From contig NZ_QICB01000003.1 in assembly GCF_003725295.1 (NCBI RefSeq), positions 186,001-250,000 of the forward strand: 64,000 nucleotides of DNA. The letters are read 5' to 3'. This document shows positions 8,983 through 55,833 of this stretch, piece after piece. Both the position numbers and the translations under genes were made by a program. The DNA comes from Slackia faecicanis (GTDB taxonomy: Bacteria; Actinomycetota; Coriobacteriia; Coriobacteriales; Eggerthellaceae). The notes under the pieces are model-generated. The model was not told where the DNA came from. It did not search any database and worked only from the letters and a program-made list of their open reading frames with translations. How positions within the stretch are numbered: position 1 is the first letter of the stretch; every line of letters begins with the position of its first letter.

Positions 8983-9618
8983 CTATTCCCCTCCCAGGTC
9001 TCCCAGCTCGCAAGGGTTGGCGATCGCCCCCTCGCCGCGTTCGGCCGCAGCCGCTGCGGGCGACAAGAGCATGAAAAGATTCGGCTCCGTATACGACGAA
9101 TCAGGCAACGGAAGCACGTCGGATACGGCCTCGGAACGAAGCGACGCCATGTCGTCGGCATCGCCTGCGGCGAGCGCGCGAAGCGGGCAGGCCTCGACGC
9201 AGATGGGCTGCTTGCCCTCGGCCACGCGGCTCGAGCACCCGTCGCACTTCGAGCTTTGACGGGTGAATTCGTCGATCGACGGCGCATGATACGGGCACGC
9301 GACGGTGCAGTAGCCGCAGCCGATGCATTTCTTCGCATCGACGCACACCAGGTCGAGCTCGTTTTTATGCATGGCGCCCGTCGGGCACACGTGCACGCAT
9401 TCGGGCCTGTCGCAATGATTGCAGGCAAGCGATATGTGGTAGACGTAGGAGGTGACCCTGACGCATCCGTCGGCGCCGCTTTCGCAGACGCCGCCCTCGT
9501 AATCGATGACGCGGCGATAGACATGCCCCGCCGCCAGCCCGTGATAGTCGGCGCAGGCGGCCATGCACGTGCGACACCCCGTGCACCGCGTATTGTCGAA
9601 GAAGAATCCGCGCGCCAA
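8983..9618 (-). CDS. DmsB-like 4Fe-4S ferredoxin subunit (first of two)
   Basis: A 211-residue electron-transfer subunit with four Cys groups for four [4Fe-4S] clusters: CTGCRTCMAAC near the N-terminus, CNHCDRPECVHVC, CIGCGYCTVAC and CDGC...CVEAC. Such subunits carry electrons between the membrane anchor and the molybdoenzyme. It begins with TTG directly after GGGGGAGG. It is followed by torD and dmsC, and preceded by a terminator that separates it from the dmsA-dmsB pair. It is about half identical by eye to the neighbouring DmsB-like protein, so the two look like a duplication. Confidence 0.88.
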   Translation of the reverse strand: MARGFFFDNTRCTGCRTCMAACADYHGLAAGHVYRRVIDYEGGVCESGADGCVRVTSYVYHISLACNHCDRPECVHVCPTGAMHKNELDLVCVDAKKCIGCGYCTVACPYHAPSIDEFTRQSSKCDGCSSRVAEGKQPICVEACPLRALAAGDADDMASLRSEAVSDVLPLPDSSYTEPNLFMLLSPAAAAAERGEGAIANPCELGDLGGE

Positions 9619-9754: not shown

Positions 9755-10372
9755 CTAGATCTCCAGCTCGTTGGCCACGAAGCCCGTAGCGTCGCCCGGC
9801 TCCTTGGCGGCAGGGCACGCCTTGATGAGCAGGCTCGGAACCGTCAAGGACGGATCGGCCAGAGGCGCGATGCCGGCCACGGCGTCGGGATGGGCCGCCT
9901 TGAGCTCGTCCAGATCGCCCCACTCGAGCGCGCGCAGCGGGCAGGCCTCGACGCAGATGGGCTGCTTGCCCTCGGCCACGCGGTCGCGGCACATGTCGCA
10001 CTTCTTGGCCTTGTTCTCTTCCTTCACCAGGATCGGCACGCCGTAGGGGCAGGCGTCCACGCAGGCGCCGTTGCCCGTGCAGGTGTCCTGGTTGATGAAC
10101 ACGATGCCGTCTTCGTCCTTCTCGATCGCGCCCGTCGGACACGCCGCGAAGCACTTGGGGTTCTCGCAGTGATTGCACGCATCGGAGACGTGGTACATGA
10201 ACGCGTCGCACGTCGCGGTGCCGTCGGCGCCGAGGGAGCAGCTTCCGCCCTCGTAGTCGAACACCCTGCGGAAGGCCACGTCGGCGGGCAGGTCTTTATA
10301 GTCTTTGCACGCCATCTCGCACGTGCGGCAACCCGTGCAGCGGGTGCTGTCGAAATAGAATCCGTAAGCCAT
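9755..10372 (-). CDS. DmsB-like 4Fe-4S ferredoxin subunit (second)
   Basis: A 205-residue iron-sulfur subunit with the same four-cluster arrangement as its neighbour: CTGCRTCEMAC, CNHCENPKCFAAC, CTGNGACVDAC and CDMC...CVEAC. It lies 13 bases after the catalytic subunit gene and most likely forms the electron-transfer partner of that enzyme. The N-termini of the two DmsB proteins are nearly superimposable (MAYGFYFDSTRCTGCRTC versus MARGFFFDNTRCTGCRTC), which supports recent duplication. An AAAGGGGGAAATG segment precedes the ATG. Confidence 0.9.
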   Translation of the reverse strand: MAYGFYFDSTRCTGCRTCEMACKDYKDLPADVAFRRVFDYEGGSCSLGADGTATCDAFMYHVSDACNHCENPKCFAACPTGAIEKDEDGIVFINQDTCTGNGACVDACPYGVPILVKEENKAKKCDMCRDRVAEGKQPICVEACPLRALEWGDLDELKAAHPDAVAGIAPLADPSLTVPSLLIKACPAAKEPGDATGFVANELEI

Positions 10373-28726: not shown

Positions 28727-30715
28727 CTATTCCTCCTCGTCTTCTTCCTCGGCCGCGTCGATGATCGATGCGGGCGAGAGCCAATCGATATACGGGCGGC
28801 AGAGCAGGCGCGCATCGCGGTAGGCCTGTGCCATGGTGACGACGGTCTGGCCCTGGTAGTTGCCCGATTTCTGCAGCTCCACCACAAGCGCCACGTCAGG
28901 CGTCGGCGAGTCGGTCAAGATCAGCGGAAGCAGCAGGTTCATGCTGTTCGTGCGCGGGTAATACGCGGGAACGGCGGTCTTGTAGTTCCAGCGCACCTGG
29001 CGCTTGGCCACGTCGATCGCGGCGTTGATGCTCGTGCTGAGGCGGTTGAACAGGCGCGTGTCGTTCTCGATCACGCCGCGCAGCTTCTCGAAACGCTCGC
29101 CGCGCGCGCCGTCGGAAAGCTCCTCGATGCCCGCCAGGATGCCCAGGCACTCCTGAGACGACGCCAGCTCGTCGCGCAGGAAATTCACCGGCAGCCTGTG
29201 CACGTTGTCCACCACGATGTGGTGCACGTCGCACACCACCTCGCGATCCAGGTCGAACAGCAGGTCTTCCTTGCGCTCAAGATAGCTTGCGGGCTGCGGC
29301 AGCGGATTGAGCTCGCGCACCAGGCGCTTGCCGAGTCTGCCCGTGCCCGCCGTGCAAAAGCCCGAAAACGACCACGGATAGCGCGTCTCTTCCGGCTTGT
29401 CGGGGTCGGACGGCTCGAAGCAGGCGTAGATGTCTTCGTAGTGCTTGTCCACCAGGCCCGTGTTGAACACGGCGAAATCCTCATCGGAGGAAAAGCCCAC
29501 CTTGTCTTCGAGCGTCAGACGGTAGAAGGTGTAACGGATGTAATTGTGCAGAATGTCGAACTTGCGCGTGTTGGCGTCGAGTCCGGCGCCGCTGAAATCC
29601 CACGGCTCGTCGAGGGCGAGGTCGGCCAGCGTGGCCAAGAATTCCTGCCACGTTCCCAGGTAGCCGAAGCGCTCGAGCGCTTTGCCGGGAATGACGCGGC
29701 GGCGCGGGCGTCGGATGTCCGGGCGCGAAGCCGCGGCGCCCTGCGCCGATCCGGCCTTGCTCGCAGACGCGGGCTTGGCGGTACGGCGGCGGGCAGACGA
29801 ATCATGCTCGGATGCGCCGCGACGCGTCTGGGCGGCGTCCTGCTTCTTGTCGTCTTTCTCATCCGAAGCGGAATCGGCCTTCTTGTCGGATTCGGCCGCC
29901 TTGCCTGCGGGCGCCTTCTTCGCCTGGTCGCCCGCATTCGGCTTGGCATCCGGCGAAGCGTCCGCAGAAGAAGCGTCCTGGGCCGCATCGGCCTGCTCGT
30001 GAGCGCCGCAGCCTCGGCCCGGTTTCGGGGCGCTGCCCGATTGAGCGGAACGGCGCACCGGGGTTTTCCCCTGCTTCTGCTCTTCCGCTTTTTCGGCCTG
30101 CTTTTCTTTTACCTGGTCAGTATTAGTATCTATTTGATTGTCAGTACTATTTTTATCTTTCTTATTCGCGTCTACTTTACTTTTCTTGTCTTGTTTTTTT
30201 TCAGCTTCAGCAGACTCTTTTGAATCGGCTTTCTTAGATTCACTATCGTTACTATTCGCATCATTAGTATCTTTTTGATTGCTAGGTTTCTTTTTGTCTG
30301 CTTGGTTACTTTGCTGCGCCTTATCTTTTTTAGAAACCGCGTTCGCGAAACGAGCCTCTTCATCGGCTGCAGCCTGGCGCGCCGGGTCATCGCCCTCTTC
30401 GCCCTCGACGGGCGCGACCTCGTCGACGGAGGGCGCGTCGTTTTCGTAATCCTCGAACTCGTGCAGGCAGAACATCGACTGCGATACGCCGCCGATCTCT
30501 TTCGTGGACAGGCTCACGAAATCGGACATTTCCTCAAGCATGGGCTTGAGCTTCAGAAAGCCGTAGTCTTCGCGGTTGATGCCTTCGCGAACGAAGCACC
30601 AGCCAAGGCTTGCCAGCGGGTAGTCTTCGTCGAAATCGAACTTCTTCTTCAGCGCACGATAGATGAACCGACGGTCGTCGTCGGACATGTGCGGCTTTGC
30701 GGGTTTGCGGGCCAT
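28727..30715 (-). CDS. OST-HTH/LOTUS-like plus DUF3825-like protein with charged linker
   Basis: A 662-residue protein. Residues about 12-82 match the OST-HTH/LOTUS pattern (DYPLASLGWCFV followed by YGFLKLKPMLEEMSDFVSL), a predicted RNA-binding winged helix. Residues about 345-655 look like DUF3825 (FGYLGTWQEFLATLADLAL and the later VPAYYPRTNSMNLLLPL segment). Between them lies a 250-residue disordered linker rich in Lys, Asp, Ser, Gln and Ala. Part of the linker (about 30095-30345) is strongly AT-rich with codons rare elsewhere in the window. The ATG at 30715 has AGGAGG. It is translationally coupled to the downstream phosphoesterase. I recognise the domains by pattern only; an RNA-related role is inferred. 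Confidence 0.75.
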   Translation of the reverse strand: MARKPAKPHMSDDDRRFIYRALKKKFDFDEDYPLASLGWCFVREGINREDYGFLKLKPMLEEMSDFVSLSTKEIGGVSQSMFCLHEFEDYENDAPSVDEVAPVEGEEGDDPARQAAADEEARFANAVSKKDKAQQSNQADKKKPSNQKDTNDANSNDSESKKADSKESAEAEKKQDKKSKVDANKKDKNSTDNQIDTNTDQVKEKQAEKAEEQKQGKTPVRRSAQSGSAPKPGRGCGAHEQADAAQDASSADASPDAKPNAGDQAKKAPAGKAAESDKKADSASDEKDDKKQDAAQTRRGASEHDSSARRRTAKPASASKAGSAQGAAASRPDIRRPRRRVIPGKALERFGYLGTWQEFLATLADLALDEPWDFSGAGLDANTRKFDILHNYIRYTFYRLTLEDKVGFSSDEDFAVFNTGLVDKHYEDIYACFEPSDPDKPEETRYPWSFSGFCTAGTGRLGKRLVRELNPLPQPASYLERKEDLLFDLDREVVCDVHHIVVDNVHRLPVNFLRDELASSQECLGILAGIEELSDGARGERFEKLRGVIENDTRLFNRLSTSINAAIDVAKRQVRWNYKTAVPAYYPRTNSMNLLLPLILTDSPTPDVALVVELQKSGNYQGQTVVTMAQAYRDARLLCRPYIDWLSPASIIDAAEEEDEEE

Positions 30716-32428: not shown

Positions 32429-33190
32429 TTACGCCTGCGCCTTCACATGGCACTGACGCATCCACTCGTACATGACGGCGGTAGCGGCCTGGGCCACGTT
32501 GAGCGAGCCGACCTTGCCCTCCTGGGGAAGCTTGGTCAAAAAGTCGCAGCTCTCCTGTGTCAGGCGCGACAGGCCCTCGCCTTCGTTGCCCATCACCAGG
32601 ACGATTTTGCCGTGCAGGGGCGCTTCCCACACCGTGTAGTGCGCCTGCTCGCTGGCGCCTGCCACCCAAAAGCCCGCCTCTTTGAGCTTCTCAAGCGTGG
32701 AGGCGATGTTGGGAACCTGGGCGCACGGAATATGATTGATGGCGCCCGCGGAGCTCTTGTAGGTGGCGGCCGTCACATGCGCGCTGCGCTTGTTGGGGAT
32801 AATCAGGCCCGATGCGCCGACGATTTCGACGGAGCGCGCGATGGCGCCCAGGTTGCCGGCATCGGTGATGTGGTCGAGCACCACGACGAGCGCGTTGCCG
32901 TCATGCTCTTCGGCATGCTGCTCGGCGGCACGCAGGATGTCCTTGAAACCCGCGTAGCGATACGGACGGGCCTCGGCCATGATGCCCTGGTGGCTTCCGC
33001 GCGCGCTCAGCTCGTCGAGCTTGCGGCGCGTCACCGTTTTCACGGGCACGTCGAACTGACGGGCCTTGCGCAGAATGTCTTTGACCTGGCCGTCCTGCTG
33101 CAGGTTGTCGGCCATCAGCACGCATTTGACGGGCATCTGGGCGCGCAGCGCCTCGATGACCGGGCGTTTTCCCTCGATATAGTCTGCCAT
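32429..33190 (-). CDS. rlmB: 23S rRNA (guanosine2251-2'-O)-methyltransferase RlmB (TrmH family)
   Basis: A 253-residue SpoU/TrmH-family methyltransferase. The N-terminal substrate-binding domain begins MADYIEGKRPVIEAL. The SPOUT motifs follow: DHITDAGNLGAIARS (motif 1), LVMGNEGEGLS (motif 2) and LPQEGKVGSLNVAQAATAVMYEW (motif 3). It heads the four-gene RNA operon. The assignment to RlmB rather than another 2'-O-methyltransferase rests on overall pattern. Confidence 0.9.
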   Translation of the reverse strand: MADYIEGKRPVIEALRAQMPVKCVLMADNLQQDGQVKDILRKARQFDVPVKTVTRRKLDELSARGSHQGIMAEARPYRYAGFKDILRAAEQHAEEHDGNALVVVLDHITDAGNLGAIARSVEIVGASGLIIPNKRSAHVTAATYKSSAGAINHIPCAQVPNIASTLEKLKEAGFWVAGASEQAHYTVWEAPLHGKIVLVMGNEGEGLSRLTQESCDFLTKLPQEGKVGSLNVAQAATAVMYEWMRQCHVKAQA

Positions 33191-33303
33191 GATTTTCCTA
33201 TCGCCTTATTCCCCTGAGCGGCCGGTGCGAGTTTTCGGCCGCGTATCTTTCAAGCGCCTCGAAGGACGCGAATTCGTAACGGTTGATTATCGCATGTCCC
33301 CAT

Positions 33304-33582
33304 AAGGAAAGGGCCCGCAATGCGAACCCTTTCAAGAAACCCATGTCGAAACGCCGTGCGCGACATCGTGCGCCCGACCGCAATCGCGATCCTCCGGCCG
33401 CAATTGTCAGGCAGCGACCACGCAGTCACGAGCACGCGACCGCACAGCCGGTTAAACCGTACAACCAACCGCAGCCTTTCATCCGCGTCCATCCAGCCAC
33501 GCCCGCAGCCTCCTAACCACGGCCGCCCAGCCACGCCCGCAGCCTTCCGGCCGCTACCGCCCGGCTTTACCGGGCGGAAACG
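33304..33582 (-). repeat. dispersed intergenic repeat, copy A
   Basis: This stretch fills most of the 376-bp gap between rlmB and the TorD-like gene. Its core (33353-33442) aligns without gaps to 42451-42540 with 74 of 90 identical bases, the last 22 being identical. Similarity continues into a hairpin at one end (AGGG...CCCT) and a CCGCCCGG/CCGGGCGG hairpin (33557-33577) at the other, with degenerate GC-rich tandem units between. The second hairpin overlaps the TorD stop codon, so the repeat supplies the last residues of that protein. Confidence 0.85.
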
Positions 33583-34265
33583 AAATCGCGCAGCAGACGC
33601 GCCGCGGCACGATAGAACACCCGCGACGAGATGCGCTCCACCTCGCACGCGAAATCGCACATCCACATCGCTGGGTGCTCGTCGAAAAACAGTTCGAACG
33701 CCGTCGCTGGCGAACCGCCGGGAAGATCGGCCAGGGCAACGCCGCATGATGCCGCGTCCACCGCCCCCGATTCCACGCTCGCAAGAAACTGCAGCAGCTC
33801 AAGCTCGGACGAAACATGGTCGAGCGATTCGTTCGTGCCCTGAGGACGACCCAGGCCGCATGCGGCGCAAAAGCGCTCGACGGCGATGGCGGAGGGGCTG
33901 ACGAAAAGCAGCGGGGCCGCATGGGTGCGCGCCGCCGCCCAAACGCTTTCGTACGGACTTGCCGCAGGCGTCGGCGGACCGACGAACAGCCGCGTCGCCT
34001 CCTGGCGCAGCGCATGCAAAACGGCCTCGGGACCTTCGCCTGAATCCGCCCGCGTCAGCTCGCCGCACTCCGCATCGGCGGCAAACCCCCACGCACGGCG
34101 CAGCTCGTCCAGCGCATCGGCCCATTCGCCCGACGCAATCGGCATCACGGCGCCGCGATCGGGATAGCGAAATGAAAACGCAAGAAACTCGCAGGTCGTG
34201 GCAACAAGGCCCCAATCCGTCACAACATCATGCGACCCTGCGGCCCCACAAGAAACGCTTTGCAT
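33567..34265 (-). CDS. TorD-family chaperone of second molybdoenzyme operon
   Basis: A 232-residue helical protein of the TorD family. It shows ATTCEFLAFSFRYPD near the N-terminus and PYESVWAAARTHAAP in the middle, matching the conserved P-Y-x-S-V segment of such chaperones, then a Glu/His-rich C-terminal region (FDEHPAMWMCDFACEV). The ATG at 34265 has AAAGGGG with suitable spacing. It is the last gene of the operon and presumably matures the catalytic subunit. Its stop codon lies inside a dispersed repeat element, suggesting its 3' end was altered by insertion. Confidence 0.85.
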   Translation of the reverse strand: MQSVSCGAAGSHDVVTDWGLVATTCEFLAFSFRYPDRGAVMPIASGEWADALDELRRAWGFAADAECGELTRADSGEGPEAVLHALRQEATRLFVGPPTPAASPYESVWAAARTHAAPLLFVSPSAIAVERFCAACGLGRPQGTNESLDHVSSELELLQFLASVESGAVDAASCGVALADLPGGSPATAFELFFDEHPAMWMCDFACEVERISSRVFYRAAARLLRDFVSAR

Positions 34266-34285
34266 GTGTTTACCCCTTTCCCCCG

Positions 34286-34714
34286 TCATCGCTTCGACAC
34301 AACGGCCTTCATCTTCGGCGCGAACAAGACAACATGCACCAAAGCAAGCGCCATGAACAACTGCGCCGAAAACGCATGGACAGGCGCCCAGAAGAAAAAC
34401 CCTCCGGCATACAGGCCGAACGTCGGCAGCACGGCACCCGACACCATCAGGCCCGAAACCGCGCAAACCGCCAGATCGACGAAGATCGCCGCATTCAACA
34501 CGAACGAAAAAGCCTTGCCCGCACGGCGTTTGCGAAATCCGTTCTGGAACAGCCTGGCGCCTTCCTCGTGGCGCGCCGCCACATGGACGATCACCGCAAC
34601 CGCGAACACAAGCCCCGCCCATTCATGCACGCCATAGCCAGTCGAATCGGGAAACATCAGCGCGATCGCGCCCGCGGCAAGCACGACGTCGAAAACGAAT
34701 GATCGCATACTCAT
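34286..34714 (-). CDS. small membrane cytochrome b-like protein (DUF4405-like)
   Basis: A 142-residue membrane protein with four predicted helices. Conserved histidines lie in GVHEWAGL, VIVHVAARHEEG, PVHAFSAQ and ALVHVVLF, the spacing expected of a haem b-binding four-helix domain (DUF4405 or related cytochrome). The ATG at 34714 has GAGGTGA. It follows the CX4CH protein by five bases, so the two are likely translated together and may form a membrane electron-transfer module. The family assignment is by pattern. Confidence 0.7.
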   Translation of the reverse strand: MSMRSFVFDVVLAAGAIALMFPDSTGYGVHEWAGLVFAVAVIVHVAARHEEGARLFQNGFRKRRAGKAFSFVLNAAIFVDLAVCAVSGLMVSGAVLPTFGLYAGGFFFWAPVHAFSAQLFMALALVHVVLFAPKMKAVVSKR

Positions 34715-34719
34715 CGATG

Positions 34720-35079
34720 TCACCTCGACTTTCTTACCATGACGATGGCGATGCATGCGAACATGGCGGGCACCAGAAGCCACACCATGAGGCTGACGCC
34801 CGATGCCCGGCGGTAGCCGTCGGAAAGGGCACTCCACGCGTGGCAATCGACTGACGCGCAGCCATCTTCCGGACACTTCATCTCATGGATGCCGTCGGGT
34901 GCGGGCACGTTATCGAACCCGTGGCATTGCCCGGTGGCGCACCCCTGCACGACAGGGCATTCCGATTCGGCCGTGATGCCCGCAGGTGCGCCCACGGCGT
35001 CGAGCGCGACATCGGCCGCGAAAAACGACAGCAGGCACGCCGCCGCGAAAAGAGCCGCGTAAGCGAAGATTCGCCTCAT
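34720..35079 (-). CDS. small membrane protein with two CX4CH haem-like motifs
   Basis: A 119-residue protein with an N-terminal signal or transmembrane segment (5-25) and a C-terminal transmembrane helix (94-115). The extracytoplasmic loop holds two similar units: C41, C47, C52-H53 and C69, C74, C79-H80. Each has a CX4CH sequence (CATGQCH, CASVDCH), a known variant of the c-type haem attachment motif, plus an extra upstream Cys. It sits between NrfD and a cytochrome b-like gene. It is most likely a small di-haem cytochrome c, but metal or disulfide binding is possible. Confidence 0.65.
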   Translation of the reverse strand: MRRIFAYAALFAAACLLSFFAADVALDAVGAPAGITAESECPVVQGCATGQCHGFDNVPAPDGIHEMKCPEDGCASVDCHAWSALSDGYRRASGVSLMVWLLVPAMFACIAIVMVRKSR

Positions 35080-35123
35080 CGCGCCATCACCTTCCCTTCA
35101 GACAGCCGAAATACAACCGACGA

Positions 35124-35164
35124 ACCCGCGCGTCGCATGCGCTCGCACAAAACGACACGCGGGT
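35124..35164 (-). terminator. hairpin between nrfD-like gene and cytochrome pair
   Basis: ACCCGCGTGTCG pairs with CGACGCGCGGGT (one G-T pair) across a 17-base loop, with TTCG after it. It may partly terminate or process the transcript, lowering expression of the last three genes. Confidence 0.5.
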
Positions 35165-35172
35165 CTTTTCGC

Positions 35173-36402
35173 CTATTCGGCCGACTTCAACGGAAGATGC
35201 TTGACGCCCAGAAGCAGCATCAAAACGCCCAGGGCGAACACGCCGGCGACGACGCCGAATTCGATCGGCGCAGGCGCATACACGCTGTTCGCATACAGGC
35301 TCGCAAACGAGCCGTACGCATCGTAGCCGCCAAGCGCCGCATGATCGGTCAAAACGGTGGGCATGTCGAGATTAGGAACCTGGAACCCGCCTACGATAAG
35401 CTGCACGCGCTTGCAGAAGATGCCGACGATGGCCAGCACGGACGCCACGATGAGCAGCGCATTGGAGCGCAGCTTAGGCGTGAAGCACACGACGGCACAC
35501 GCGATACACCCGATAACCTCGACCCAGAAGAAGGGGGCGAGCACGCCGCTCGTGAGCATCTCCACGATGCCCACGCCGCCTTCGGAAAGCGGATAACCCG
35601 TAGTCAGAAGGTCGCATCCGAAGAAATACAGGTCCACGCACACGAACGCGCCCAGAAGCTTCGCCATCTTGACGAGGTTGTCGTCGGCCACGTCGAAATA
35701 GCCCGCCGCACGCAGCGCGATGACGACGGCCAGCACCAGGGCGGTTCCGCACACCAGGGCGGAGCTCACGAACCACGGGGCCAGAAGGGCGGTATGCCAG
35801 AACTCGTGGGAAATGTTCAGTCCCAGAATCCAAGCCGTCACCGAATGGACCAGCACCGCCACCACAAGCGCGACCACGCTGATGACGCGCAGGGCCACCG
35901 CGCGCATCTTGCCTTGCTCGAAGCGGATCTGCGCCCACAGATAGAAAAGCGAAAGCACCAGATACGTTCCGATGACCAGCACGTCCCACATCAGCGGACT
36001 GGTCAGATTGGAGTACACGAACAGCTCCCACAGACGGATCGGCTGGCCGAGGTCGACCACCACCAGGCCGATCGCGCACACGGTGCAGCAGATCGAGGTC
36101 CACACGGCGACCTTGCTGATGCCGCCGAAGCCCTTGATGCCGAACGCCTTCGGCATGGAGCTGATGATCAGGCCGCCCGCGGACAGGCCGACGAAGAACA
36201 TGAAGGACATGATGTAGAGACCCCACGAATCAAGGTCGCGCATGCCCGTCTGGATCATGCCGCCCGAAAGCTGGACCATCCACAACGCGATGCCGGCGAC
36301 GGTGATGACGGCGGACACGGCAATGGCAATATTGAGGGCCTTGCCCGCTTTGCAAGGCGCCCCGGTCTTGGCGGCGGATGCCGCCTGCTTGTTGTCAGAC
36401 AT
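35173..36402 (-). CDS. nrfD: NrfD/PsrC-type membrane quinol subunit
   Basis: A 409-residue polytopic protein with about ten helices, of the NrfD/PsrC family. Such subunits pass electrons between the quinone pool and a periplasm-facing ferredoxin subunit. Features include the N-terminal LDSWGLYIMSFMFFVGLSAG and the HSVTAWILGLNISHEFWHTALLAPWFVSSAL segment. The ATG at 36402 has GAGGGGAAAG. It follows the ferredoxin gene by 13 bases, in the standard catalytic subunit-ferredoxin-NrfD order. Confidence 0.92.
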   Translation of the reverse strand: MSDNKQAASAAKTGAPCKAGKALNIAIAVSAVITVAGIALWMVQLSGGMIQTGMRDLDSWGLYIMSFMFFVGLSAGGLIISSMPKAFGIKGFGGISKVAVWTSICCTVCAIGLVVVDLGQPIRLWELFVYSNLTSPLMWDVLVIGTYLVLSLFYLWAQIRFEQGKMRAVALRVISVVALVVAVLVHSVTAWILGLNISHEFWHTALLAPWFVSSALVCGTALVLAVVIALRAAGYFDVADDNLVKMAKLLGAFVCVDLYFFGCDLLTTGYPLSEGGVGIVEMLTSGVLAPFFWVEVIGCIACAVVCFTPKLRSNALLIVASVLAIVGIFCKRVQLIVGGFQVPNLDMPTVLTDHAALGGYDAYGSFASLYANSVYAPAPIEFGVVAGVFALGVLMLLLGVKHLPLKSAE

Positions 36403-36415
36403 TCTTTCCCCTCGC

Positions 36416-37036
36416 TTACACCAGGTAATACACGGACGGAGAGGTTCCGCTATCGGGAAGGAGCTGCATGTATTCGCGCTCCCTGATAAGCTTGGACACC
36501 TCGGAATCGGGATCGTCGAAATCGCCGAAATAGCGCACGCGTGCGGGGCACACCTCGATGCACGCGGGCTGGAGCCCCTGCGCAAGGCGATGCCAACACA
36601 TGGTGCATTTCTCCACCGTGTGCTTCTGATGCTTGGCAACGCTCACATCGCCCATATCCTGGCCGATCGCATACACGGGCTCTTCCCAGTTGAAGCTGCG
36701 CACGCCCGTGTAAGGGCAGGCGGCCATGCACATGCGGCAGCCGATGCACTTGTCGTAATCCTGGCGAACGGCACCCGTGGCCTCGTCTTTATACGTCGCG
36801 CCCACAGGGCACACCTTCACGCATGCGGGGTTGTCGCAATGCTGGCACGAAACGGCGATGTTCCCCATGGAAAGGTTGGGATAGGTTCCCTTCGGGGTGT
36901 CGCGATTCTCGCCGCCTTCGGTCAGGATGCGATTCCACCACACGCCGTCGGGCAGGTTGTTCTCCACCTTGCATGCAACGGCGCACGCGTGGCAGCCGAT
37001 GCACGACTTCTTATCGATAACATATCCGAGACGCAT
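36416..37036 (-). CDS. 4Fe-4S ferredoxin subunit of second molybdoenzyme
   Basis: A 206-residue PsrB/NrfC/DmsB-type electron-transfer subunit with four cluster motifs: CIGCHACAVAC, CQHCDNPACVKVC, CIGCRMCMAAC and CTMC...CIEVC. The start is an ATG two bases after the catalytic subunit stop. It is more similar in layout to PsrB than to the two DmsB-like proteins of the first locus, having a longer insertion before the second motif. Confidence 0.93.
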   Translation of the reverse strand: MRLGYVIDKKSCIGCHACAVACKVENNLPDGVWWNRILTEGGENRDTPKGTYPNLSMGNIAVSCQHCDNPACVKVCPVGATYKDEATGAVRQDYDKCIGCRMCMAACPYTGVRSFNWEEPVYAIGQDMGDVSVAKHQKHTVEKCTMCWHRLAQGLQPACIEVCPARVRYFGDFDDPDSEVSKLIREREYMQLLPDSGTSPSVYYLV

Positions 37037-37038
37037 CG

Positions 37039-39582
37039 CTATTCACCCTCTTCGTTCCACACGCGGACCTCGCAAAGCACGTCCATGAAATTGTTGTTCA
37101 CGCCGAACACGTCGTATTCGGTGGAGCTGAGCTCAGACCAGCCGCCCGCCTTGTGCTGGTAGCGCTGCCATCCCTTGGGATAGACCAGCGTGCCGGGACG
37201 AATGGCGTCGGAGAAGACCGCCCTGGCAACCGCCGTTCCGCGATCGTTGTAGCATTCCACGTAATCGCCGTCAGCGATGCCGCGCGCAGCCGCATCAGCG
37301 GGGTTGATCCGCACGAACGGCTCGGAGTCGAGCTCGCGCAGAAGCGGCGTACTGTACCACTGGGAGTGCACGCGATAGCGAGGACGCTCGCTCATGAGCA
37401 CCAGCGGATACTTCTTGTACAGGTCGTTTTCGGGCCATGCCTCCAAAGGCGGGAACCAACGCGCCATGCGGTCGCGTTCCACCTCTTCGGGCGTCGGGGT
37501 CTTGCTGGAAAGCGCGCGCACCATGGGCATTTCGCGATAGAACTCGAAGCGGCCCGAAGCCGTGCCGAAGACACCGTCCTTGTAGGCGATATGGGGCTCT
37601 TTTTCGGCGTCGCCCTCGATGAAGCGAATCTGCTTCTTCTCGCGCAGCGCATCCATGCTCACGCCGACCATCGCGCACGTGTCGCAGTCGAAAAGCTCCT
37701 CGAGGATTTCCTCGTTGGACAGGGTGAAAAATTCGCCCAGGCCGAGCTTTTCGGCCAGCTCGGTGATAATCTGGGTGTCGGGCTTGCTCTCGTACAAAGG
37801 TTCAATCGCCTTCTCGCTGTAGTTCAGCGAGAAGCACTGGCCGGCGTTGGCCACCTCTTCGAGCTCGAACCACTGCGCCACGGGAAGCACCATGTCGGCA
37901 TAGCGGGCCGAATCGGTCATGACGGAATCGGCCACCACCACGTAATCGAGCGACGGGATGATGTCGTCGGTCCATGCGTGCGTGTCGGTGTGGGTGTTCA
38001 AGGGGTTGGCCGAATACATCCACAGCATCTTGATCTTGGCATCTTGGCCTGCAAATTTGCCGGTCTTGGCAACGTTGGCGAAATCGACGCTGGGAATGCT
38101 CAGGCCCGTGCTCGCGCCGGTCGGCGCCTTATAGGCGGCGTTGTCGCCCATGTGGATGCCCCAGTACGAACCGTACGAAGCGCCGGGCTTGCCGAGGTTG
38201 CCGACAAGCGCGCAAAGCGTCAGGCCCGCCATGGTGGTGTGGCCGCCGTTGTTGTATGCCTGCGGGCCGTAGCCCTCGTAATGAAACACCGGGCCGTCGA
38301 TGCAGACGTCGGCCAGATACTCGATGTCTTCGACGGAAACCTCGCACAGCTCGCTCGCCTCTTCGAGGCTATGCGACATGATCTCCTCTTTCAGCAGCTC
38401 GTATGCCGTGCGGCACGCCACGCCGCCAAGGTCGTACGAACCCTCGATCGCCACATGCGTCGGGTCGGCCTCCGTCAAGGGAACGAGCGCGCCGTCGACG
38501 AGCACCATATAGGGGTCGTCCATGACCTCCTGGCCGGTCGTCGGGTCGATCACGCCGGTTGCAACGGGGGCGATGCCGGTGTCGCTGCGACGGACGAACA
38601 TACCCGTGTCGCTGCGCACCAAAAACGGCGCCACCGTGTGGTCGCGAAGATAGGCCACGTCCTGCGCACCGCGCTCCACGATCACGCGCATGATGGCGTA
38701 CTTCAAAAGCGTGTCGCTTCCCGGGCGGACGGGAATCCACTTGTCGGATTTCGACGCGATCTGCGTGTACGTGGGGTCGATGACGACGAGCTTGGTGCCG
38801 CCCTCCATCGCCTCTTTGATGTGATGCCAGTTCTGAACCTGCGCATCGGTGATGTTGGCGCCCCACACCATGATGGTCTTGGCGTTCTTTGCATCGGTGG
38901 GCTCGTTACCCTCCCACATGGCCAGGCCCATCAACGGAGTGATGTAGAGGCCGGCAACCGCCTGCATGCCGTAGAAGCTGCCCATGTCCAAGCACGGCGT
39001 GATGCTGCTGGCATTGAGGATGTTCTGCAAACGGCCGTAGGCGCCCGTGATGCCCGCCGACTGATTGCCCGAAGCGGTCAAAAACGCGAGCGCGCCTTCG
39101 CCGTATTCGGCCTGGGTCTTCTTGATGTTCTCGGCGATTTCGGTCAGAGCCTCATCCCAGCTGATGCGCTCCCACTGACCCGCACCGCGCTCGGTTCCCT
39201 GCACGCGACGCATGGGATACTGAACACGCTCGGGGTCGTAGATGCGATGCACGTGCGAAAGGCCGCGCTGGCAGATGCGGCTGTAGCAATCCTCGTTGTA
39301 CGGCGCGCGAGACGTCTTGACCACCTTGCCGTCGCGCACATGCACGTTCAGATGGCAGAAGCCGAAACAGTTCGGCCTGCATACTCCTCGAAAGATCGTT
39401 TCGCCCTCGTTGTTCGGCTGTCCCGCAACGAATTCCCCTGCAACCTGCGGCAGCCCCGGCTGCGATTGAGCGCATGACGTAAGCGAGACGGTCGCCGTCG
39501 TTCCGGCGGCAACCGCGGCCGTCGTCTTCAGAAAGCTTCTACGCGTGATTGTGCGAGAGCCCGCATTCTGTTCCGCTGCCAA
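37039..39582 (-). CDS. molybdopterin oxidoreductase, Tat-exported (second locus)
   Basis: An 847-residue catalytic subunit of the DMSO reductase superfamily. The Tat signal TITRRSFLKTTAAV is followed by a lipobox-like TSC. The [4Fe-4S] motif is CRPNCFGFC with a later Cys at RICQRG. Typical bis-MGD segments follow (MVWGANITDAQ, VIDPTYTQIASKSDKWIPVRPGSD, WMYSANPLNT, LVLMSERPRYRVHSQW). The best start is a TTG directly after TTAGGGGGAACA, which gives a normal-length Tat leader; an ATG 47 codons upstream would add a basic non-signal extension. The molybdenum ligand is not clear, and the substrate is unknown. It heads a six-gene operon. Confidence 0.93.
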   Translation of the reverse strand: MAAEQNAGSRTITRRSFLKTTAAVAAGTTATVSLTSCAQSQPGLPQVAGEFVAGQPNNEGETIFRGVCRPNCFGFCHLNVHVRDGKVVKTSRAPYNEDCYSRICQRGLSHVHRIYDPERVQYPMRRVQGTERGAGQWERISWDEALTEIAENIKKTQAEYGEGALAFLTASGNQSAGITGAYGRLQNILNASSITPCLDMGSFYGMQAVAGLYITPLMGLAMWEGNEPTDAKNAKTIMVWGANITDAQVQNWHHIKEAMEGGTKLVVIDPTYTQIASKSDKWIPVRPGSDTLLKYAIMRVIVERGAQDVAYLRDHTVAPFLVRSDTGMFVRRSDTGIAPVATGVIDPTTGQEVMDDPYMVLVDGALVPLTEADPTHVAIEGSYDLGGVACRTAYELLKEEIMSHSLEEASELCEVSVEDIEYLADVCIDGPVFHYEGYGPQAYNNGGHTTMAGLTLCALVGNLGKPGASYGSYWGIHMGDNAAYKAPTGASTGLSIPSVDFANVAKTGKFAGQDAKIKMLWMYSANPLNTHTDTHAWTDDIIPSLDYVVVADSVMTDSARYADMVLPVAQWFELEEVANAGQCFSLNYSEKAIEPLYESKPDTQIITELAEKLGLGEFFTLSNEEILEELFDCDTCAMVGVSMDALREKKQIRFIEGDAEKEPHIAYKDGVFGTASGRFEFYREMPMVRALSSKTPTPEEVERDRMARWFPPLEAWPENDLYKKYPLVLMSERPRYRVHSQWYSTPLLRELDSEPFVRINPADAAARGIADGDYVECYNDRGTAVARAVFSDAIRPGTLVYPKGWQRYQHKAGGWSELSSTEYDVFGVNNNFMDVLCEVRVWNEEGE

Positions 39583-39726
39583 TGTTCCCCCTAACAAAAG
39601 ATTCGAACCGTCCGCTTCAAAGGCGTTGCGTTGCGCATCGCGACGACCTTTCCCCTGCGGACGTCCTCCCTCACGCAAGCGGCGCTTGCGTCCTTGACAA
39701 GAACCAGCTGATTCTTTTGTCATAGG

Positions 39727-39778
39727 TTGTCATACATACAGGGGATATTCAAGGATTGAATAGGGCAATATATGACAA
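39727..39778. promoter_or_regulatory. nested dyad upstream of second molybdoenzyme operon
   Basis: An inner dyad ATTCAA-GGA-TTGAAT (39747-39761) lies almost concentric with outer arms TTGTCATA (39727-39734) and TATGACAA (39771-39778). It is AT-rich, lies 145-200 bases upstream of the TTG start, and probably binds a regulator of the operon. No clear -10/-35 pair was assigned. Confidence 0.5.
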
Positions 39779-39836
39779 TGATTATTCTATTTTGAGTATG
39801 ATCGACGAAAAAACGCCTGAAGAAACGCGTCTTATC

Positions 39837-40784
39837 CTATTTCTTCGCGCCGTCGCCCACGAATCCGTCGGCAAAACTGCTCGGAAGCACGAGCGTGCCG
39901 CCCGATTCCTCCATGCCCTCGCACGCAAGATGCATGGTACGCAGGCGCATCGCAACGTCGTTGGCGTCGTAGCTTTCGGAGGCGTCGGCGAGCATGGCGG
40001 ATATATCCTGCTCGGCCTCGGCCAGCACGATGCGTGCATTGCGTTTGCGCTCGGCAACGGCCTCGGCGGCCATGGCCTTTTGCAGCTCCTTCGGAATGAC
40101 GATGTCGCGCACCTCCACGTCGATGATGTCGATGCCCCAAGGGGAAAGCTTCTGTTCGATGCGGTCTTTCAACTCGTCGTCGAGCTGCTCGCGCCGCGTT
40201 GCCAGCTCCGCGACGGAAATGCGGCCGATGGCCTCCCTCATCGAGGTCTGGGCCACCCACGAAACCGCCGTCACGTAGTCCTCCACCTCCACGGCCGCCT
40301 TCTCGGGGTCGAAGACCATCCAGAACAGGACCGCGTCGACATTCACCGGCACCAGGTCTTTCGTGAGCGTTTCCTCGGCGCCGAAATACACCGACGCCAC
40401 GCGCTGGTCGATGCGCACCGTATAGAACTCGACGATGGGAATGGTGAACACGATGCCCGGCCCCGCAACCCTGTTGAACCGGCCGAAGCGCATGACCACG
40501 GCCTTCTCCCATTCCAAAACGATATGGATGGAATTAGACGCGAGAAGGCCCACGAAGCACGCAACGAGCAGCGCCGCCAGGCCGATGCGCCCCGCCACCA
40601 GCGCCCATGCCGACGCCACGATCGCGAAGGCGAGCGCGAAAACCGCGATGGAAAACACCGTTGCGCCATTGCGGGTGGTTCTCCTGCGTTCGATCTGCGG
40701 CATGGACGGCGTGCCGTCGAAACGAAGGGGGCCGCAAGCGCCCTTCTGCCTTGATTCCTTCTGCTTGCGAGCTTTTTTGCCCAT
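39837..40784 (-). CDS. SPFH/band 7 (stomatin-like) membrane protein
   Basis: A 315-residue protein with a basic N-terminus, two close hydrophobic segments (about 40-85) and a band 7 domain (about 88-265): VLEWEKAVVMRFGRFNRVAGPGIVFTIPIVE, then the LTKDLVPVNVDAVLFW and WGIDIIDVEVRDIVIPKELQKAM segments typical of stomatins. Such proteins oligomerise in membrane microdomains. The ATG at 40784 has AGGGGAGACG upstream. It is the third gene of an NrfD-GntR-SPFH operon, an unusual context for this family. Confidence 0.92.
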   Translation of the reverse strand: MGKKARKQKESRQKGACGPLRFDGTPSMPQIERRRTTRNGATVFSIAVFALAFAIVASAWALVAGRIGLAALLVACFVGLLASNSIHIVLEWEKAVVMRFGRFNRVAGPGIVFTIPIVEFYTVRIDQRVASVYFGAEETLTKDLVPVNVDAVLFWMVFDPEKAAVEVEDYVTAVSWVAQTSMREAIGRISVAELATRREQLDDELKDRIEQKLSPWGIDIIDVEVRDIVIPKELQKAMAAEAVAERKRNARIVLAEAEQDISAMLADASESYDANDVAMRLRTMHLACEGMEESGGTLVLPSSFADGFVGDGAKK

Positions 40785-40845
40785 CGTCTCCCCTATCCCC
40801 GCCTGATCGGCATGTTCAATACGGCATTGCCATTCGTTCGAGCGA

Positions 40846-41313
40846 TCACGCGCCACGCGACGCATGGCCGCAGTCTGCGTCGTCGAAGCGGACGAACCGC
40901 ACGCCTCCCTTGGCAGGTTCACCGCCTGCTTGCGCGTCCCGTTGCTCCTTGATGGTTTTCAGAATCTGCCGCTCGGCGTCGTCAAGCGTCATGCCCACCT
41001 CGAGGCAGCGCTTGAGGTATTCGCGCGCCAACCCTTCGGACACCGCAGAAACGGACACGTCGCAGCGTTCGCTCACATCGGCGACGAAGGCCCCTTGCCG
41101 GCGCTTCGACACGATATAGCCGTCCTCTTCGAGGCTGCCGTACACCTTGCTGACCGTGTTGTAGTTCACGCCCACCTCGGCCGCCAGGCCTCGCACCGTG
41201 GGAAGCTGGTCGTCCGTTTTATAGTATCCAGAAGTAATCAAGTATATGAAACGATTTTTCAGCTGCAGCCATACGGGAAGGCTGCTCTTCTCATTGACTT
41301 CGAAAAGCGCCAT
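40846..41313 (-). CDS. GntR-family regulator (YtrA-like)
   Basis: A 155-residue regulator. The N-terminal winged helix (about 1-78) has LPVWLQLKNRFIYLITSGYYKTDDQLPTVRGLAAEVGVNYNTVSKVYGSLEEDGYIVSKRRQG, the GntR DNA-binding pattern. The C-terminal part is short and helical, as in the YtrA subfamily that controls neighbouring membrane proteins. Its start lies 23 bases inside the upstream NrfD-like gene, so the two are coupled. It probably autoregulates this operon. Confidence 0.9.
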   Translation of the reverse strand: MALFEVNEKSSLPVWLQLKNRFIYLITSGYYKTDDQLPTVRGLAAEVGVNYNTVSKVYGSLEEDGYIVSKRRQGAFVADVSERCDVSVSAVSEGLAREYLKRCLEVGMTLDDAERQILKTIKEQRDAQAGGEPAKGGVRFVRFDDADCGHASRGA

Positions 41314-42379
41314 CTTCTGTCATTCCAATCGAATCCGAACCAAACGCCGACGCGTTTCCACGCGCATCTTCCTGCGGATACGCAAGCTGCATATCCTGCC
41401 ATTGGGCGGCTTCCACGATGGACCATCTCAGGCACCATCCGCCGAGCAAAATCAAAACCCCCACAAAAACACAGGCAAGAGAACCTTCGAACCGAAGCGA
41501 GGGGAATCGCGACGCAAAGACCTCGCATGCAAAGGGAATCGCCAGCCCGCACACGACAAATCCCGCCCACCAGGCAGCACAGACGCTCCCATCCACGAAC
41601 AGAGACGCACACAGCTGCCACCACGGCCCGTCTTTTCCCGCAAGAGCATCGACGATGAAAAGACCCGCGAAAAGCGTCTCGCACGCGATGGCGCCCAGGT
41701 CGATGAGAAGCAGCCTGCGCACGAAGGGCCGCACGAACGCCGATTCGCCGACCACGGTGGCAACCACAAGGATGACGGCGCATCCGCACGATGCCGACGA
41801 GAAGAGAAACAGCGCAAGTATCCACCAGGAATGCCACAACTCGATCGCGGGGCCGACGCTCACAAGCAGCGCGCCCGTGTAGACCATGACGAACAACGCC
41901 GCGACCATCGTGACCGTTTCAAGAAGACGGATGGCTTTCCGAGGCCATGCCATACCGTCGAAAAACGCCGCGAAGCACAGCAGCGCACCCGACGCGAGTA
42001 AGACGGCCAACGAGAAAACCCCGAACGTGATAAACGATGCCGAGGGAGTGAAGAACAGCAAGGCCAAGCGGTCGATGCGCCCCAGGTCGAACACGAGGCA
42101 GGCCACGCCGAAAGCGACAAGGCCCTCCCCCGCAAGGAGGGAAAACGCCTTAACGCGGCGCAGCGAATCGCGCGCATTCGCAGCACTCGGCAAGCCTGCG
42201 TGACCCGCAAGAACATGGCCTTTCGCAAACACGTCAAGAAGCGACACGAGGGAAAGCACCCCCGCGCCCGCGCCGCCGAAGAAAAGATATGCCACCACAA
42301 GATCGCTGAACAAAGAAACCCCGCAAACAGGAGCCGGACGCACTTCAACCCGGCCATCGACAGAGGCAGCATAGTACAC
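41291..42379 (-). CDS. orphan NrfD-like membrane protein
   Basis: A 362-residue polytopic protein with eight to nine helices and NrfD-like features: LFSDLVVAYLFFGGAGAGVLSL near the N-terminus, a CLVFDLGRIDRL loop and ELWHSWWILALFLFSSASCG. Unlike usual NrfD proteins it has no ferredoxin or catalytic subunit beside it. The start is a GTG with only a weak GGAAT upstream, so a few residues are uncertain. It overlaps the following GntR gene. Confidence 0.8.
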   Translation of the reverse strand: MYYAASVDGRVEVRPAPVCGVSLFSDLVVAYLFFGGAGAGVLSLVSLLDVFAKGHVLAGHAGLPSAANARDSLRRVKAFSLLAGEGLVAFGVACLVFDLGRIDRLALLFFTPSASFITFGVFSLAVLLASGALLCFAAFFDGMAWPRKAIRLLETVTMVAALFVMVYTGALLVSVGPAIELWHSWWILALFLFSSASCGCAVILVVATVVGESAFVRPFVRRLLLIDLGAIACETLFAGLFIVDALAGKDGPWWQLCASLFVDGSVCAAWWAGFVVCGLAIPFACEVFASRFPSLRFEGSLACVFVGVLILLGGWCLRWSIVEAAQWQDMQLAYPQEDARGNASAFGSDSIGMTEDGAFRSQ

Positions 42380-42403
42380 AAAGCCGATTCCGACAACGTA
42401 CGA

Positions 42404-42644
42404 AGAGAGGGCCCGAAAACGAGCCCTCCCAAGAAAACCTCTGTCGAAACACCGCGCGCGATGCCGTGCGACCGACAGCGATCGTAATCCTCCTGCCGCA
42501 GTTGACTGGCAGCGGCTACGCAGTCACGAGCACGCGACCGACCGCAACCTCTCGGCCACAACCACCCGGCCACGACCGCAAATCTCGGCCACGGCCTCCC
42601 GGCTACCGCCCAGCCACCGCCGCACGGCTTACCGAGCGGAAACG
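42404..42644 (-). repeat. dispersed intergenic repeat, copy B
   Basis: This copy occupies the gap between cysS and the orphan nrfD-like gene. The core at 42451-42540 is 82 percent identical to copy A without gaps. The distal hairpin (CCGCACGG/CCGAGCGG, one mismatch, 42620-42639) begins five bases after the cysS stop, and the proximal hairpin is GAGGGC/GCCCTC near 42405-42428. Both copies have the same orientation relative to the flanking minus-strand genes. Confidence 0.85.
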
Positions 42645-44123
42645 CTACGCGCGCTTGATGCGAGCGCCCGCGTTGGTGTCTTCGACCATCAGTCCCAGCT
42701 CATTGAGGCGGTCGCGAATCGCATCGGCGCGACCCCAGTCTTTCGCGGCGCGAGCCTCGGCGCGCGCCGCAAGCAAGGCCTCGGCGGCAGCTTCGATGCC
42801 ATCGCCCTCGAAGCCCACCAAGTCGGCGGCAAGGCCCACCAGCTCGTCCGGAAGATCGAGCGCTTCGCGAATGGGAACCTCGATGCCCAGAATGGCGAAT
42901 GCGCCCATGATGGAAGCGGCACACACCACGGCAGCCTCCTCGTCGACGGCGCCCGCCGCCTGCTCGAGGTAGGTATTGGCCTCGGTGACCAGGTTGAAGT
43001 AGGCGGCCAGGGCGCCCGCGGTGTTGAAGTCGTCGTTCATCTGCGCCTCGAACTCAGCCGACGCGGCCTCGGTGGCGGCGATGAGCTTCTGCGCCGCCTG
43101 CTCGTCTACAGCGGCGCCTTCCTCGACGTGGTTCGCGGCCCAGCGCAGGTTCTCCACCGCCGTGGCAATGCGGGCCAGCGAATTCTCGGCGCCCTCGAGG
43201 CGCTCGTAGGAGAAGTCGAGCGGCGAGCGGTAATGCGTCTGCAGCATGAGCAGGCGCAGCGCCGGCGCGGAGTGCTCGTCGAGCACCTCTTTGAGCGTGT
43301 AGAAGTTGCCGAGCGACTTGCTCATCTTCTCGCCGTCGACGCGCAGCATGCCCGTGTGCATCCAGGTGTTGACGAAGGGAACGTGCCAGCAACACGTGGC
43401 CTGGGCACACTCGTTCTCATGATGCGGGAACGCCAGGTCGCCGCCGCCGCCGTGGATGTCGATCGGGGTGCCCAGGTAGCGATGCACCATGGCCGCGCAC
43501 TCGGTGTGCCAGCCGGGGCGGCCGTCGCCCCACGGAGAAGGCCAGCTGGGCTCGCCGGGCTTGGCGCCCTTCCACAGCGCGAAATCGAGCGGGTCGCGCT
43601 TGTCTTCGTTTTCCTCGATGCGGGCGCCCACCATGAGGTCATCGATCTTGCGGCCCGAAACCTCGCCGTAGTTCTCATCGCTGCGCACCGCGAAATACAC
43701 GTCGCCGTTATCGACGGCATAGGCGTGGCCCTGCTCGATCAGACTCTTGATCATGGCGATCATGGGGCCGATTTCCTTCGTGGCGCGCGGGCGGATGTCG
43801 GGATCCATGATATTGAAGCGACGCATCTGCTCGATGAACGCGTCGGAGAACTCGGAGGCCACCTCTTCGGACGTGCGGCCCTGCTCGTTGGCGCGATTGA
43901 TGATCTTGTCATCGACGTCGGTCAGGTTCTGGGCGAACGTGACCTCGTAGCCGCTCGCGATGAGCCAGCGGCGGATGACGTCGAACGAAAGGAAGGTGCG
44001 GGCGTTGCCGATGTGGATCTGGTCGTACACGGTGGGGCCGCACACGTACATGCGGACCTTGCCCTCTTCGATCGGCACGAACTCGCGCTTCTCGCGCACC
44101 TGGCTGTTATAGATACGAATCAT
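42645..44123 (-). CDS. cysS: cysteinyl-tRNA synthetase
   Basis: A 492-residue class I synthetase charging tRNA-Cys. It has YVCGPTVYDQIHIGNART (zinc Cys and HIGH-type motif), the zinc ligands in GWHTECAAM and HHENECAQ, and the KMSKS-type motif EKMSKSLGN. A DALR-type helical domain and anticodon-binding tail follow. The ATG at 44123 has GGGAGGAATC. Its 3' side carries the dispersed repeat in place of an ordinary terminator. Confidence 0.96.
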   Translation of the reverse strand: MIRIYNSQVREKREFVPIEEGKVRMYVCGPTVYDQIHIGNARTFLSFDVIRRWLIASGYEVTFAQNLTDVDDKIINRANEQGRTSEEVASEFSDAFIEQMRRFNIMDPDIRPRATKEIGPMIAMIKSLIEQGHAYAVDNGDVYFAVRSDENYGEVSGRKIDDLMVGARIEENEDKRDPLDFALWKGAKPGEPSWPSPWGDGRPGWHTECAAMVHRYLGTPIDIHGGGGDLAFPHHENECAQATCCWHVPFVNTWMHTGMLRVDGEKMSKSLGNFYTLKEVLDEHSAPALRLLMLQTHYRSPLDFSYERLEGAENSLARIATAVENLRWAANHVEEGAAVDEQAAQKLIAATEAASAEFEAQMNDDFNTAGALAAYFNLVTEANTYLEQAAGAVDEEAAVVCAASIMGAFAILGIEVPIREALDLPDELVGLAADLVGFEGDGIEAAAEALLAARAEARAAKDWGRADAIRDRLNELGLMVEDTNAGARIKRA

Positions 44124-44252
44124 GATTCCTCCCGGAAATAACGTGACGAGCATGCATCATGCTTACATAGACAAGGTCGAGATGCGCCTTGACGCAGCGC
44201 CCGAAAGCTTACAACAGATCGGGCGCGTATCCCACGCGCAGTTCCGCACGAG

Positions 44253-55365: not shown

Positions 55366-55542
55366 ACCTCGCAACCCTTTCCATCGTCTGTCCTGCTTTC
55401 GGCCCGATCCGGCGAACGGGCCTTCGCGCGCCGCATGGCTGCGTTCCTCGCGGAAAGGGCGGACCCTTCCGCGAACAAGCAACGCCGCGGGCGTCGTATG
55501 GGCCTTCGCCGTGACGCGAAGGCGCTGGAACCGGTTCCTATA

Positions 55543-55581
55543 CGGCCCGGTCGGCCGTTCTTGGTAGGAGCGGTGGGACTC
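55543..55581 (-). repeat. duplicated tRNA-Leu 3' end, distal copy
   Basis: 39 bases identical to 55731-55769. They contain the last 20 bases of tRNA-Leu including CCA, plus 19 bases of downstream flank. The two copies are 188 bases apart, the pattern left by a site-specific integration event or tandem duplication. The surrounding 55366-55749 region holds no gene. Confidence 0.85.
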
Positions 55582-55675: not shown

Positions 55676-55730
55676 CACCTTATCGGTTCGAGCCCCTCGC
55701 GCCGATGCTCTCCGTCACTCAATTCCCATG

Positions 55731-55769
55731 CGGCCCGGTCGGCCGTTCTTGGTAGGAGCGGTGGGACTC
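55731..55769 (-). repeat. duplicated tRNA-Leu 3' end, tRNA-proximal copy
   Basis: This is the intact copy, forming the real 3' end and flank of the tRNA-Leu gene. It is identical over 39 bases to 55543-55581. Confidence 0.85.
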
Positions 55770-55833
55770 GAACCCACAAGACCGAAGTCGGAAGATTTTA
55801 AGTCTCCTGCGTATGCCATTTCGCCACGCTCCC
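55750..55833 (-). tRNA. tRNA-Leu (UAA)
   Basis: A class II tRNA on the minus strand. The acceptor GGGAGCG pairs with CGCTCCT, the anticodon loop CTTAAAA gives UAA, the variable arm is long (around CCGACTTCGG), the T-arm is TGTGG GTTCGAG CCACC-like, and CCA is encoded. Confidence 0.9.

Follow-up and report, generated by a model that had tools for sequence, protein, structure and literature searches.

Flexible genomic loci are exchanged through homologous recombination in the conserved genes that flank them, and intrinsic terminators are GC-rich hairpins located downstream of genes. In M. tuberculosis, repeat-associated conversion and a 7.3-kb duplication have been described (PMC12046097). The literature served as context only, and no description of the present locus was found in it. 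The locus lies in the window, by which we mean the whole 64,000-nt stretch of Slackia faecicanis DNA that was analysed, and consists of a 9-kb molybdoenzyme cluster with a similar sequence at each of its ends. We consider it probable that this repeat is the relic of a duplication and marks an accessory locus at either end, the cluster itself being exchanged by recombination in its flanks.

Results

A two-copy direct repeat at the ends of a molybdoenzyme cluster

The two copies of the repeat (A and B) lie on the same strand, as had been noticed in an earlier, sequence-only reading of the window; this is the minus strand, with copy A between torD and rlmB and copy B between cysS and an NrfD-like gene (Table 1). 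The gapless match reported in that reading (33353–33442 versus 42451–42540) was recomputed and again gave 74 of 90 identical bases. Local alignment of A and B yielded 137 nt at 81% identity (E about 1e-30), with a second, weaker block of 115 nt at 69.6% upstream of it, and the whole unit measures approximately 250–285 nt when the torD tail is counted in. Read along the minus strand, each copy is made up of a torD 3' coding tail, a spacer (E) and a hairpin (T) that is a predicted terminator.

Table 1. Coordinates in the window of the repeat copies, their hairpins, the accessory cluster and the neighbouring core genes
Feature	Position	Strand	Remark	Basis
Copy A	33307–33591	-	torD 3' coding tail (33567–33591), spacer E, T; between torD and rlmB	
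Copy B	42405–42652	-	torD 3' tail relic (42629–42652, overlapping the cysS end), spacer E, T; between cysS and nrfD-like gene	
23-nt stretch identical in A and B, CGGTCGCGTGCTCGTGACTGCGT	33420–33442	-		sequence comparison
Terminator-like hairpin T of A	33307–33333	-	counterpart single-copy between cysS and rlmB in empty-site genomes	
Terminator-like hairpin T of B	42405–42430	-	compensatory changes relative to A	
Hairpin spanning the torD stop codon, A	33557–33577	-	degenerate counterpart in B at 42620–42639	
Accessory cluster, whole	33567–42379	-		Pfam
NrfD-like	41291–42379	-		Pfam
GntR regulator	40846–41313	-		Pfam
SPFH protein	39837–40922	-		Pfam
Molybdopterin oxidoreductase	37039–39723	-		Pfam
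4Fe-4S subunit	36416–37036	-		Pfam
Second NrfD	within 35173–36639	-		Pfam
Cytochrome b561/DUF4405	34286–34876	-		Pfam
TorD-like (torD), ORF	33567–34622	-	last cluster gene	Pfam
cysS, core gene	42645–44153	-	on the upstream side of the cluster; last ~300 nt in the putatively recombined patch	
rlmB-type SpoU rRNA methyltransferase, core gene	32429–33190	-	on the other side of the cluster	
T–rlmB interval	33191–33348	.	second half of the putatively recombined patch	

The repeat had been described as dispersed and as a possible miniature mobile element, and it had been proposed to count its copies and to compare occupied with empty sites. Empty sites were found (see below), additional copies were not: in the S. 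faecicanis genome (1,995,252 bases in 20 contigs, 97.7% complete) the sequence occurs in exactly two places, with no third copy anywhere in these ~2 Mb, and it is a two-copy direct repeat rather than a repeat family. Within the genus only the terminator end recurs, in related Slackia, and a search of 138 genomes of the family returned nothing past the T end and short matches; the T-like matches in genus g39 were terminator hairpins in a different context, and viral contigs searched with the repeat gave 0 matches. For a MITE or IS remnant inserted twice, which would fit a pair of similar intergenic sequences, each with a hairpin at either end, these counts leave next to no chance, as does the genuine torD coding sequence included in the unit. 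By inspection, neither a terminal inverted repeat nor a target-site duplication was present at the aligned ends, the unit running from torD coding sequence to T. Copy number and torD content contradict the mobile-element suggestion, as does the result that none of the genes examined encodes an integrase or transposase.

Two annotations within the cluster deserve comment. The 351-aa torD ORF, which overlaps the cytochrome gene, probably extends too far at its N-terminus, and a plus-strand ORF (34885–36486) considered as a LuxR gene was rejected because it runs antisense to the NrfD gene. Elsewhere in the window, a 47-nt direct repeat (96% identity) occupies 55535–55581 and 55723–55769, the second copy overlapping the end of a tRNA gene (55753–55833), and the first possibly represents an att-like relic or the 3' fragment of a tRNA; a 180-nt direct repeat at 72% identity (9071–9250 and 9825–10004) is possibly paralogous coding sequence.

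Occupied and empty sites in related Slackia genomes

The closest named relatives at the cysS–rlmB site were Slackia genomes. The site is empty in G007 (Slackia sp. cluster2_bin.78) and G009 (Slackia sp. S1M_St_29), where cysS adjoins rlmB with a single T between them, and no relative of the S. faecicanis torD was detected in either genome. G007 is collinear with the window on both sides, matching cysS up to 42645 and then the sequence from 33348 onward, and because the match breaks at 42645/33348, the extra DNA of the window comprises the cluster, the torD tail and spacer of A, and all of B. The assumption that the flanked block is accessory is borne out by the empty cysS–rlmB sites in these close relatives and by the failure to detect a torD relative in those two genomes. 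In G010 (Slackia sp. S30M_St_16) the same site is occupied: one contig runs from cysS through T and nrfD into the oxidoreductase gene and another from the remainder of the oxidoreductase gene to torD, T and rlmB, both being collinear with the window across a gap of ~0.7 kb. Occupied genomes thus number two, one of which (G010) is a fragmented MAG (83% complete, 5% contaminated) whose cysS and rlmB sides lie on separate contigs; a further genome, G008, was left out of the site comparison because contig ends cut its cysS and rlmB.

In several other genera of the Eggerthellaceae (L050, L055, L056, L057, L074), homologues of TorD, molybdopterin oxidoreductase, NrfD or SPFH proteins were located at most ~9 kb upstream of rlmB, whose surroundings may thus be a recurrent location for clusters of this type. 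Other rlmB loci, when scanned upstream of rlmB for similar direct repeats, contained just short matches, mostly inverted. In Slackia piriformis (L044, L128) the cysS beside rlmB is ~55–57% identical to that of the window, rlmB is 87% identical, and a small extra gene apparently lies between the two, which suggests that cysS was displaced in this species.

The cysS-side copy carries the tail of torD

Copy A overlaps the stop codon of torD, and the sequence-only reading took this to mean that an inserted element supplies the last residues of the protein. We found that the C-terminus of torD falls where 28 homologues end, and because torD ends where its homologues do, its end is read as native and B as copied from it. 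Copy B of S. faecicanis begins with a torD-end relic of ~25 nt (CGTTTCCGCTCGGTAA versus CGTTTCCGCCCGGTAA in torD); 2 of 5000 shuffles and 8 of 5000 random window pieces attained as good a match. The cysS-side copy of G010 holds 46 nt from the end of the torD coding sequence, in which a single base is absent. These comparisons indicate that the cysS-side copy is derived from the torD end. The native C-terminus and the tail copied to the cysS side in G010 speak against an element that supplies the end of torD, and the earlier preference for insertion rather than local duplication has to be reversed: a unit that contains the tail of the adjacent gene is the product of a duplication of local sequence.

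The same tail bears on a Campbell-type entry, in which a circle with one terminator copy would integrate by a single crossover at T and generate direct repeats at once. Such an entry would account for an insert bracketed by direct repeats and for the single T of the empty sites, but it predicts the spacer of the recipient beside cysS, where the torD tail is found instead; moreover, the homology at T amounts to only ~45 nt and a subsequent conversion would be required in any case, which makes this route improbable.

The two copies resemble each other within genomes

Within each occupied genome, A and B align over the whole unit (in G010, 122 nt at 97.5%, the 46 nt of torD tail included), whereas of the orthologous copies of S. 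faecicanis and G010 only ~50–60 nt around T can be aligned. T alone is an exception, since T of the S. faecicanis copy A is nearer to G010 than to T of its own copy B. As the spacers of the two genomes do not align, the copies appear to be kept alike within each genome, and we infer that, once S. faecicanis and G010 had split, A and B underwent conversion or unequal crossing-over in one lineage or in both. Cluster DNA is ~80–86% identical between the two genomes and the core flanks 84–87%; with flanks and cluster both at roughly 80–87%, the locus looks inherited and the spacers would have turned over together. Tandem units are present in the GC-rich spacer, approximately two of ~33–34 nt in B (42539–42603) and, by eye, alike in A (33468–33545), and are a likely source of fast spacer turnover.

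Unrelated spacers would also be expected if S. faecicanis and G010 had each acquired the cluster, or duplicated its end, on their own, with no homogenisation required. The left boundary of B points the same way and counts against the account favoured here: the torD tail starts at the cysS end in S. faecicanis and 24 bp after the cysS stop codon in G010. Against independent acquisition, the two genomes agree in site, gene order and the right-hand boundary at T, and the identity of the cluster is close to that of the core flanks, as vertical descent predicts. We regard separate acquisition as unlikely.

The conserved hairpin is a probable terminator

The hairpins described as matching at both ends of the repeat proved to be real in A and B at the 3' end, but the 5' hairpin is degenerate in B. 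The 3' hairpin, T, is GC-rich and conserved at gene 3' ends; across six sequences 71 of 71 cells of the stem were paired and two pairs were altered on both sides, a pairing score equalled by 26 of 500 shuffles with this number of sequences. No T run follows the stem, which is succeeded by CTTAT in A and TTCGT in B, and a consensus terminator scan, which requires a T run, called neither hairpin. Despite these two results, T is probably a terminator. T of the S. faecicanis copy B has diverged more than T of A, by changes that preserve pairing, which is consistent with selection for the hairpin at both places.

A structured regulatory RNA shared by the leaders of rlmB and nrfD had also been a candidate. 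The folds of both copies exceed shuffles in stability (z -3.9 for A and -2.5 for B), and the compensatory changes in T would fit such an RNA. Stability of GC-rich folds is by itself weak evidence for an RNA, and when the 136-nt core was folded, z was a modest -1.9 and -3.2, with unlike internal structures in A and B. For helices beyond the terminator there are just two related spacers to compare, and their predicted folds differ. Searches against Rfam (the whole window at the gathering threshold, A also at a relaxed threshold) matched only tRNAs, and the spacer measures ~30–35 nt and is unrelated in G010, and is ~40 nt or less in the empty sites. The conserved structure is limited to the terminal hairpin, and the spacer is not common to S. 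faecicanis and G010. With no Rfam match, dissimilar middle structures and a spacer missing in relatives, an RNA element at this locus is very unlikely.

The core flanks group genomes by occupancy

In 150-nt windows over 20 kb, S. faecicanis and G007 showed a median identity of 93%. Most of cysS was about 91–98% identical (mostly 95–98%), the final ~300 nt of cysS were 79–83% and the T–rlmB interval 69–76% identical, and at the start of rlmB identity was back to 97–100%. Low-identity stretches also occur elsewhere in the same 20 kb, and the bounds of the short patch (466 nt) used for comparing four genomes were picked post hoc from this identity profile. Within the patch, informative sites split 23:7:6 in favour of S. 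faecicanis with G010 versus G007 with G009; outside it the split was 13:26:87, the 87 sites favouring S. faecicanis with G007. The AU test on the same four genomes preferred the first grouping in the patch (alternatives p = 0.043) and S. faecicanis with G007 outside it (others p = 0.0002 and 0.001). The tree conflict is limited to the flanks. The tree of the flanks follows occupancy, which suggests that the cluster is exchanged through homologous recombination in the flanking core genes, and the evidence that occupied and empty alleles have been exchanged in this manner is good but not overwhelming. Among the other low-identity stretches, one (65–85%, 29700–30510) lies inside a gene for a DUF3825 protein and perhaps represents a fast-evolving or exchanged domain.

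An accessory block with direct repeats at both ends is also what attL and attR of an integrative element with a site-specific recombinase would look like. This is highly improbable here: no recombinase or integrase is found among the Pfam-matched genes between the copies, the repeat carries the tail of the block's own gene, unlike an att core, and the tree conflict reaches past the repeats into cysS.

Discussion

A duplication relic at the ends of an exchanged cluster would have arisen as follows. In the ancestral state cysS would have adjoined rlmB, with hairpin T after cysS. The molybdoenzyme cluster would then have arrived between cysS and T, which left its last gene, torD, ending at T, and the cluster end (torD tail, spacer and T) would have been duplicated ahead of the first cluster gene, through which cysS would have regained a terminator. 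The simplest route would be a tandem duplication of the cluster, after which one copy would have been lost almost entirely; none of the genomes compared shows a full tandem duplication. The direct repeats would subsequently have been re-homogenised lineage by lineage, either through gene conversion or through repeated rounds of unequal crossing-over and collapse, and the cluster with its immediate flanks would pass between Slackia lineages, or be lost, via homologous recombination in cysS and beside rlmB. The exchange can be read either way, as a gain of the cluster by the S. faecicanis lineage or as its loss from G007.

An extension of this account, which we consider unlikely, is that the paired T repeats act as a recurrent hinge for amplification and deletion, with Slackia populations including cells that hold 0, 1 or several copies of the cluster. 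If true, respiratory capacity would be tuned by cluster copy number and both repeats would be rewritten in each cycle.

The Slackia pair resembles duplication-derived direct repeats kept by non-allelic homologous recombination or gene conversion, such as those of M. tuberculosis (PMC12046097), in that the copies lie kilobases apart, are more alike within than between genomes and need no transposase; it differs in that no full duplication is seen and the repeated unit, a gene tail together with a terminator, sits at both ends of an accessory metabolic cluster. The locus provides a worked case from a gut bacterium: an accessory respiratory cluster is apparently exchanged via core-gene homology, no machinery of a mobile element having been detected, and a duplicated gene tail and terminator account for the direct repeats beside it. 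The case is a warning, too, that direct repeats around accessory blocks should not be equated with transposon or att ends until gene-tail content and empty sites have been checked. Like intrinsic terminators, T is a GC-rich hairpin (11–12 bp) downstream of genes and shows compensatory changes, but unlike these it is without a clear T run and its terminator role is predicted. Like flexible genomic loci, the Slackia site has occupied and empty alleles between core genes, a recombination signal in the flanks and no integrase found; unlike these, its flanks add a duplicated terminator, which offers possible homology for deletion or amplification.
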